Source of the DNA: Collinsella aerofaciens
GTDB taxonomy: Bacteria; Actinomycetota; Coriobacteriia; Coriobacteriales; Coriobacteriaceae
Length of the DNA: 64,000 nt
Direction of reading: 5' to 3'
Assembly (NCBI RefSeq): GCF_015554145.1
Contig: NZ_JADNHZ010000007.1
Location: 1 to 64,000, forward strand
The notes beneath the pieces were generated by a model. It saw only the letters and a list, made by a program, of their open reading frames with translations. It searched no databases and was not told where the DNA came from. This document shows, piece by piece, positions 11,322-60,755 of the stretch. The translations under genes and the position numbers were made by a program. How positions within the stretch are numbered: position 1 is the stretch's first letter; the number at the start of each line of letters is the position of its first letter.

Positions 11322-12965
11322 TCACGCCCTATAAAACACGTTGTCGGCAAAGAAGTCGGTCGGCGGCTCCATGCAGGCGATCTCGCCATCAAACATCATG
11401 GCAATGTCATCGGCAACCTGCTCGGCAAAATCCAGGTCGTGCGTTGCCATGATGACGGTGCCGCCAGCCCGCGCATGGTCGCGCAGGGCGCGGGCGATGA
11501 TGCGGCGGCTGGCCAGGTCCAGACCCTTGGTGGGCTCATCGAGCAATAGCAGTTCGGGGCCGATTAGCAGTAGCTTTGCCAACGCAAGCAGTTGGCGCTG
11601 TCCGCCCGAAAGGTCATAGGGGTGGCGTTCCCCTAAGCCCGCGAGCCCCAGACTCACCGCGCGCTCCCGCGCCATATCCTCGCCGTACCCGCAGGTCGAA
11701 GCCCATTCCATCAGCTCGTCGCGCACCGTCTCGGCAACCAGCAATGCTTTGGGATTCTGAGGCAGCAGCGCCGCCGAGGCCGCTCCGCGCATCATGCGGC
11801 CGCGCTGCAGCTTGGCGGTCTTCGCCAGCACCGAAAGCATTGTCGACTTGCCGCAGCCGTTACCGCCAACAACCGCATGCACCGCGCCAGCCGAAAACGA
11901 CGCATCGAGCCCGCGCAGCACCCAACCGCCTGCGCGATCGTAGCGAAACCAGCTCCCTGCCAGGGTGGTAGCCGACCCAGCGTGCATTTTTTGGAGTATT
12001 CTGCTTCCATCCGTGCGCGGGAAGGCTTCCGAGCCGTTCTTGAGCGACGTTTGCGCCACAAATTCGGACGATTTGTCCAATTCCGAACTTTTTTTCGCGC
12101 TCGATGCGTCCACGGGCGACTCCAGAGAGCCCAAACTGTCCTCACGCCTGCTGAATACTCCTGTTTTTGCACATCGGATGGCACCCCACCCCAACATGTC
12201 ATCGGAAAACAGCGATTCTCGGCGTCCCAAAGAAGCCATATCCGCCACCTCGCGCACGCGGCCGCCCTCAATCCGATACGCGCACGTCGCATATTCGAGC
12301 ATCGGGCGCGGCTGGTGCGTTGCCACAACAACCGTGCAACCCAGCTCGCGGTTCACGCGAAACAGCGCGTGCAGAAAATTTTTCTCGGCAACAGGATCGA
12401 GCTGGGACGTGGGCTCGTCGAGCAGCAGCACGCGCGGGCGCAAGGCCAGCACGGCCGCCAACGACAGCAGCTGCTTGCGTCCGCCCGAAAGTGTATCGGT
12501 ATCGCGGTGGAGCCAATCCTCCAGCCCAAAGAAATAGCTGGTCTCGGCTACGCGACGGCGCATCTCGTCGCGCGACATACCCAGATTTTCCAGGCCAAAC
12601 GCCATCTCGTGCCACACGGTTTCGCACACGATCTGGTTCTCGGGATCCTGGAACACATAGCCCACGCGCTCCGCCGATGCCCGCACGTCCATGTCGGCAA
12701 CGTTCTCGCCCAGCACGCGCGCATCACCAGTGCGCTCGCCCGCCGGAGCGATCTCGGGCTTGAGCAGCGAGAGTAGCGTCGATTTGCCCGACCCAGTACC
12801 ACCAACCAGCAGTGCAAACGCACCTTGGGGAACAGACCAGTCGAGCTCGTCGAGTACCGGCGCCTCAGCCCCGGGGTAGGTAAAGCTCAGGCCCCGCACC
12901 TCAATCGCAGGCACATCGGAGCCGCACGCCCCGCCCGTTACCGAGCAGTTATCCAACCGGGTCAT
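11322..12965 (-). CDS. ECF transporter double ATPase (EcfA-EcfA' fusion) with an in-frame repeat insertion
   Basis: 547 residues with two complete ABC domains. The first (about 20-250) has GGTGSGKST, the signature LSGGRKQ and VLLLDEPTSQLD. The second (about 330-545) has GGNGCGKST, LSGGQRQ and LLLLDEPTKGLD. In other bacteria these are usually two proteins (EcfA1 and EcfA2) that power vitamin uptake together with EcfT and S subunits. The linker, residues about 265-328, is low-complexity sequence (AKTGVFS to ILQKMH) encoded exactly by the 189-bp repeat at 11983-12171. The start codon overlaps the ecfT stop by one base (TGATG), showing translational coupling. Both ATPase sites look intact, so the fusion should be functional despite the insertion. 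Confidence 0.9.
   Translation of the reverse strand: MTRLDNCSVTGGACGSDVPAIEVRGLSFTYPGAEAPVLDELDWSVPQGAFALLVGGTGSGKSTLLSLLKPEIAPAGERTGDARVLGENVADMDVRASAERVGYVFQDPENQIVCETVWHEMAFGLENLGMSRDEMRRRVAETSYFFGLEDWLHRDTDTLSGGRKQLLSLAAVLALRPRVLLLDEPTSQLDPVAEKNFLHALFRVNRELGCTVVVATHQPRPMLEYATCAYRIEGGRVREVADMASLGRRESLFSDDMLGWGAIRCAKTGVFSRREDSLGSLESPVDASSAKKSSELDKSSEFVAQTSLKNGSEAFPRTDGSRILQKMHAGSATTLAGSWFRYDRAGGWVLRGLDASFSAGAVHAVVGGNGCGKSTMLSVLAKTAKLQRGRMMRGAASAALLPQNPKALLVAETVRDELMEWASTCGYGEDMARERAVSLGLAGLGERHPYDLSGGQRQLLALAKLLLIGPELLLLDEPTKGLDLASRRIIARALRDHARAGGTVIMATHDLDFAEQVADDIAMMFDGEIACMEPPTDFFADNVFYRA
11983..12171. mobile_element. MITE-like element inside the ECF ATPase gene (63 codons, in frame)
   Basis: 19-nt terminal inverted repeats at 11983-12001 and 12153-12171. 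Both begin with TGCA and end with GGAGTATTC; they differ only in the six bases between (TTTTTT against AAAACA, read inward). Length is 189 bp, exactly 63 codons, with no stop codon in the host frame. It falls between the two ATPase domains. No target duplication is obvious and no transposase is encoded. Calling it a mobile element is an inference from its termini and placement. Confidence 0.65.
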
Positions 12966-60619: not shown

Positions 60620-60755
60620 GTGTCAGACGGCTGGGCGAGATGGGTTAGGTTTGCTGCTCGGGCAGTCCTGCGCAAGACGAAGGCCACATTAAGTGGCCTT
60701 CTTTGCGTGCGGAACTCGCGACAAACCTAACCCATCTCGCCCAGCCGTCTGACAC
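60620..60755. repeat. Perfect 34-bp inverted repeat enclosing a hairpin
   Basis: Arms 60620-60653 and 60722-60755 are exact reverse complements (GTGTCAGACGG...GGTTTG). Inside, GAAGGCCAC...GTGGCCTTC (60679-60701) extends through CGCAA/TTGCG. It lies after gyrA and before the tRNAs; read on minus it may terminate gyrA. Confidence 0.9.

Follow-up and report, generated by a model that had tools for sequence, protein, structure and literature searches.

Rickettsia palindromic elements (RPEs) are palindromic repeats that are read in frame and occur in many copies within genes. Looping operator pairs, such as the lac operators, place a pair of protein sites ~100–250 bp apart on the same helix face, and miniature inverted elements of the MITE type are short, with inverted ends, a non-coding interior and several copies. 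The REPINs and BIMEs that accompany RAYT genes in Pseudomonas and E. coli are dispersed, mostly extragenic inverted doublets with constrained spacing, with a RAYT gene beside one copy. REPINs have been characterized as inverted, length-constrained doublets (PMC3116915). The family of paired sites analyzed here, from the Collinsella aerofaciens complex, shares the listed features of each of these systems and departs from each. Like the RPEs, it has a member that is read in frame at a tolerated position of a protein, but it has a single genic copy, and its sites are double-stranded and do not covary. Like the operator pairs, it presents two sites on one helix face across a similar span, but it is dispersed over ~13 unrelated loci, its sites are long, asymmetric and inverted, and its binder is putative. 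Unlike the REPINs, it combines long 43-bp sites with a low copy number, no singlets, no compensatory signature and one intragenic copy. The open-licence literature searched contains no account of a Collinsella family of this kind.

The genic member lies in a window of 64,000 nucleotides (positions 1–64,000 of contig NZ_JADNHZ010000007.1), within the ecfA fusion gene of an ECF transporter (11322–12965, minus strand, 547 aa), which encodes two ABC ATPase domains, detected as two Pfam PF00005 stretches. The first-pass annotation had placed here a 189-bp MITE-like element with 19-nt terminal inverted repeats, comprising 63 open codons between the ABC domains; the coordinates, the frame and the location are all correct. 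That segment (11983–12171, minus strand) runs from TGCA to TGCA, measures 18.0 turns of 10.5 bp and supplies ~63 linker codons. Its inverted ends are real, but the proposed repeats are not the unit: the arms TGCATTTTTTGGAGTATTC (11983–12001) and TGCAAAAACAGGAGTATTC (12153–12171, minus strand) share 13 of 19 positions, with six mismatches in the middle, and correspond to the cores of an asymmetric 43-bp site that is present in two inverted copies. The full element spans 229 bp (11963–12191), each 43-bp end reaching 20 bp beyond the reported repeat. Site 1, at the 5′ end in ecfA (GGGTGGGGTGCCATCCGATGTGCAAAAACAGGAGTATTCAGCA, 12149–12191, minus strand), scores 44.5 bits with a weight matrix and a profile E-value of 4.9e-7; site 2, at the 3′ end (GGGTGGTAGCCGACCCAGCGTGCATTTTTTGGAGTATTCTGCT, 11963–12005, plus strand), scores 40.6 bits and 5.9e-7. 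The interior (12006–12148) is coding, is not common to other loci and has lost part of its length in two relatives.

Within the window alone the arm pair is weak, an equal match count arising in 28 of 100 shuffles when two mismatches are allowed. Across genome G000, to which the window belongs, the inverted repeat is far beyond chance: TGCANNNNNNGGAGTATTC has 10 exact matches against none for the reversed control, and matches with one or two mismatches form eight facing pairs, 170–232 bp long. An alignment of 82 ends from 41 elements in five genomes (26 distinct ends) delimits a sharp-edged conserved block that begins 20 bp outside TGCA and ends 22 bp inside it. The site reads, in order, RGGT, a loosely C/G-rich stretch, GCGnCG, TGCA, a run of A or T, SGAGTATTC and WGCA; the A/T tract thus lies mid-site, and every element carries two such sites in inverted, inward-facing orientation.

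Whole-genome searches with a sequence-only profile, derived from 30 sites, retrieved 86 sites from six genomes of the complex, all in facing pairs and none orphaned. The counts are even throughout (G000, 16; G001, 14; G002, 18; G007, 22; G025, 12; G012, 4), and no match in these six genomes falls between E-values of 3e-6 and 0.1. Among 21 other Collinsella genomes the best profile match, at E 0.065, is partial and at chance level. Weight-matrix scores over 618 kb of Collinsella DNA are likewise bimodal, giving 75 pairs and only five unpaired sites, all at the edges of extracted loci. The exact core pattern, sought in ~85,000 species genomes, occurs among the matches listed (80 of 105) in aerofaciens-complex Collinsella plus two single chance matches, and in no viral contig. 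The search for intergenic copies in Collinsella that the first-pass annotation had proposed thus yields a multi-copy, inverted-end family, the other members of which are intergenic.

The pairs occupy ~13 loci that recur across species. One lies inside ecfA; the others lie between ansA and a small regulator, between pepC and larA, between rho and an EFR1-type gene, between pfkA and an ftsX-type permease, between that permease and an XRE regulator, and beside adh, tal, groES, a RAYT gene, lemA, an arsR-type regulator and uxaC. These gene names derive from sequence reading rather than curation, and the ans and tal loci, split in clustering by flank divergence, were merged by their neighboring genes. 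Most loci adjoin at least one gene 3′ end, and no divergent arrangement is found among those called. All 24 genomes examined from the complex carry the ecfA copy; G012 has only two pairs, of which one is the ecfA pair. Most loci are polymorphic for presence, and because presence varies there, the element is dispensable at those loci. In the genomes checked, elements are spread from about −925 kb to +510 kb relative to dnaA, a pattern too weak for a claim. Eight loci, termed class I (L120, L121, L122, L125, L126, L129, L138 and orthologues), carry TATGCA-N15-TATGCA starting 29 bp outside one site, with a repeat distance of 21 bp, and TGCATA just inside the other; they share such small motifs and not whole interiors.

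Other repeats occur near some of these loci. A large terminator-like palindrome beside groES (query 1754–1834) matches window positions 60647–60728 (G000:C46) at 88% over 81 bp and has many copies among the searched Collinsella genomes, G039 included, constituting a second dispersed family. The left flanks of L138, L144 and L129 contain a nested palindrome, CGTCCTCGGACATG–hairpin–CGTCCTGCGGA, in which the hairpin varies; this palindrome is repeated beside several genes. The RAYT (Y1_Tnp) homologues (L158–L177) are conserved beside suf genes; in many, the YVH motif has Ser instead of Tyr, and in some HVH has become HVR, which suggests that catalysis has been lost while the C-terminal HTH may be retained.

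The spacing between paired sites is discrete. TGCA-to-TGCA lengths fall into classes of 168–171, 189, 199/200, 209–211 and 231–233 bp, which lie within ~2 bp of 16, 18, 19, 20 or 22 turns of 10.5 bp, except for one 171-bp copy and two 57-bp alleles. Phasing to 10.5 bp is supported by a Rayleigh probability of ~3e-6 over 14 loci and of 1.5e-4 by simulation over six length classes, figures that are weakened because some loci may share ancestry; the likeness of lengths between loci may likewise be partly inherited, since eight loci share further marks. Within a locus, length is almost invariant between species despite 10–30% interior divergence, being equal in 382 of 422 allele pairs. The interior has one-third as many gaps per substitution as the flanks, a conservative comparison because the control flanks are partly coding.

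Sequence conservation is concentrated in the sites. Identity across orthologues is 97.9% in the site cores and 91.8% in their outer part, with 86.7% in the interiors and 86.5–88% in the flanks. Retrieval by pattern could inflate such values, and this was checked through partner sites, ecfA alleles found by protein, and the whole-genome profile searches; all 44 partner sites that were not needed for retrieval are intact. The interior is tolerant, since three alleles at different loci (L149, L240 and L130) carry IS256-family insertions there. At L130 an IS21-like element is in turn inserted within the IS256-family element.

The ecfA alleles allow the DNA and protein levels to be compared in a sample that is unbiased because it was retrieved by protein. 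As the first-pass annotation had stated, the copy is translated in frame as a linker, which is apparently unconstrained. Both sites are kept in 24 of 24 alleles of the complex, and all 22 full-length alleles measure 189 bp from TGCA to TGCA. In the ecfA alleles of the close relatives G002 and G033 (L085 and L084), 132 bp between the sites has been lost in frame; both sites are retained, and the remaining 57 bp from TGCA to TGCA is off helical phase. The 22 full-length linkers form two groups with near-equal replacement and silent differences: between groups the linker interior has dN of 0.46–0.52 and dS of 0.54–0.70, as against dN of 0.02–0.08 and dS of 0.09–0.61 in the ABC domains of the same allele pairs, so that dN/dS is ~0.7–0.9 in the linker versus ~0.1–0.2 in the domains. 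The linker's protein sequence thus appears to drift nearly neutrally, and the protein would tolerate almost any residues there. Within each group, third-position diversity in the element is the lowest of any 76-codon window in ecfA. The element's DNA may be held by selection or may have spread recently by recombination; recent between-species recombination could account for part of the low third-position diversity.

Comparison with relatives also bears on how the element came to reside in ecfA. Distant Collinsella carry the same two-ATPase fusion without the sites, with linkers of ~15 to 90 residues, and for this reason the element neither joined the ecfA genes, as had been suggested, nor was needed for a long linker. 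The comparison with ecfA fusions of related strains that the first-pass annotation had proposed thus shows fusions without the sites in these distant species, and both sites in all 24 alleles of the complex. The ATPase fusion is older than the element, which may plausibly have inserted into an earlier and shorter linker.

What, then, do the paired sites do? A stem in RNA is suggested by the transcript, which folds better than shuffles (z −4.2), and by the adjacency of most loci to a gene 3′ end, where inverted arms could act as a terminator or RNA element. We judge this very improbable, as only 1 of 125 changes at matched positions is compensated between left and right arms, permutation shows that the two arms of a locus resemble each other no more than they resemble arms from elsewhere, and the A/T run frequently has A in one arm where its partner has T, which cannot pair. 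The favorable fold is explained because the inverted arrangement of the sites alone yields a stem. The Rfam search returned chance miRNA models and no family match, and the ecfA copy would place a large stem within an mRNA. With arms that do not covary, an RNA or cruciform hairpin is rejected, and the ends are therefore putatively two double-stranded protein sites rather than RNA or a single-strand hairpin. Mobilization as a REPIN-like element by the neighboring Y1 transposase, acting through single-strand hairpins, meets the same objection, since REPIN arms commonly show compensatory changes. The inverted, length-constrained doublets recall REPINs and the RAYT adjacency is real: the gene is found in 23 genomes, adjoining one element in ~10 of them, and close homologues occur in 23 of 24 element-bearing genomes, an association that may reflect shared ancestry. 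The polarity of the A tracts is nevertheless unmatched between arms, genomes hold ~2–11 pairs and not hundreds, and many of the RAYT proteins have the Ser substitution; RAYT-driven movement is disfavored and appears improbable. Inverted sites ~200 bp apart are also reminiscent of invertons, and the pair could flank an invertible segment serving as a switch. This is the least probable of the readings considered and is rejected, as interiors and end variants at the inspected orthologous loci are constant in orientation relative to their flanks, and no inversion is seen among the ecfA alleles compared.

A relic family of non-autonomous transposons, the identity proposed by the first-pass annotation, would explain more. 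The 43-bp ends would be the sites of a lost transposase, the phasing would reflect transpososome geometry, and one copy would have come to lie in the ecfA linker. Such a history is consistent with the inverted multi-block ends, which are transposon-like in length, the several mostly intergenic copies beside gene 3′ ends, the presence/absence polymorphism, the features common to the eight class I loci, and the much shorter ecfA linkers of other Collinsella. Against it, no offset or length gives a flank match clearly above background that would mark a target-site duplication, and relatives offer no clean empty site, element-free intergenic alleles having replaced the whole spacer. The interiors of most loci do not match one another, and some contain ordinary terminators; the copies occupy fixed loci in different species; and the ends, far more conserved than the interior and never orphaned, are helically phased in a way that MITEs are not. 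No autonomous element with the same ends was found in the ~85,000 species genomes or the viral contigs by the exact core pattern, although such a partner could be extinct or diverged. Because no target duplication, clean empty site or autonomous partner was found, the designation MITE is not established. It is possible that the sites descend from a long-dead transposon; as an account of the present family, we find the relic reading doubtful.

The observations establish paired, oriented, phased and conserved double-stranded sites. We favor the explanation, at a probability of roughly 0.55, that the ecfA segment is one member of a paired-site family and probably a docking pair for a putative DNA-bridging protein. 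A single oligomeric DNA-binding protein would recognize the 43-bp site and bridge the facing pair, closing a loop of ~170–230 bp (16–22 turns) with both sites on one helix face; the binder might be a transposase or recombinase that has been domesticated, or else a nucleoid or regulatory factor. The TATGCA-N15-TATGCA repeat beside the site in class I loci would fit a composite protein-assembly layout, and we count it in favor. We infer the protein and the loop, together with any influence on neighboring genes or chromosome structure, from these arrangements. Weighing against docking are the off-phase 57-bp alleles of G002 and G033, the polymorphism for presence at most loci, and the IS256-family insertions tolerated in three interiors. 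Under the docking explanation, the ecfA pair would sit in a flexible inter-domain linker and be read as a ~63-residue tether at little cost to the protein, which would demand little beyond an open frame, with DNA-level selection keeping the sites.

Somewhat more tentatively, at a little less than even odds, the family may constitute a class of paired docking sites, dispersed and phase-locked, that has not been described before and is under selection at ~13 loci of one gut species complex, with one pair held at the DNA level in a coding linker whose length and composition it shapes. If so, the length and sequence of a protein linker would be set by a DNA-binding requirement and not by the protein, and an abundant human gut bacterium would possess a strictly paired, helix-phased site family whose 43-bp site offers a defined probe for its binder.
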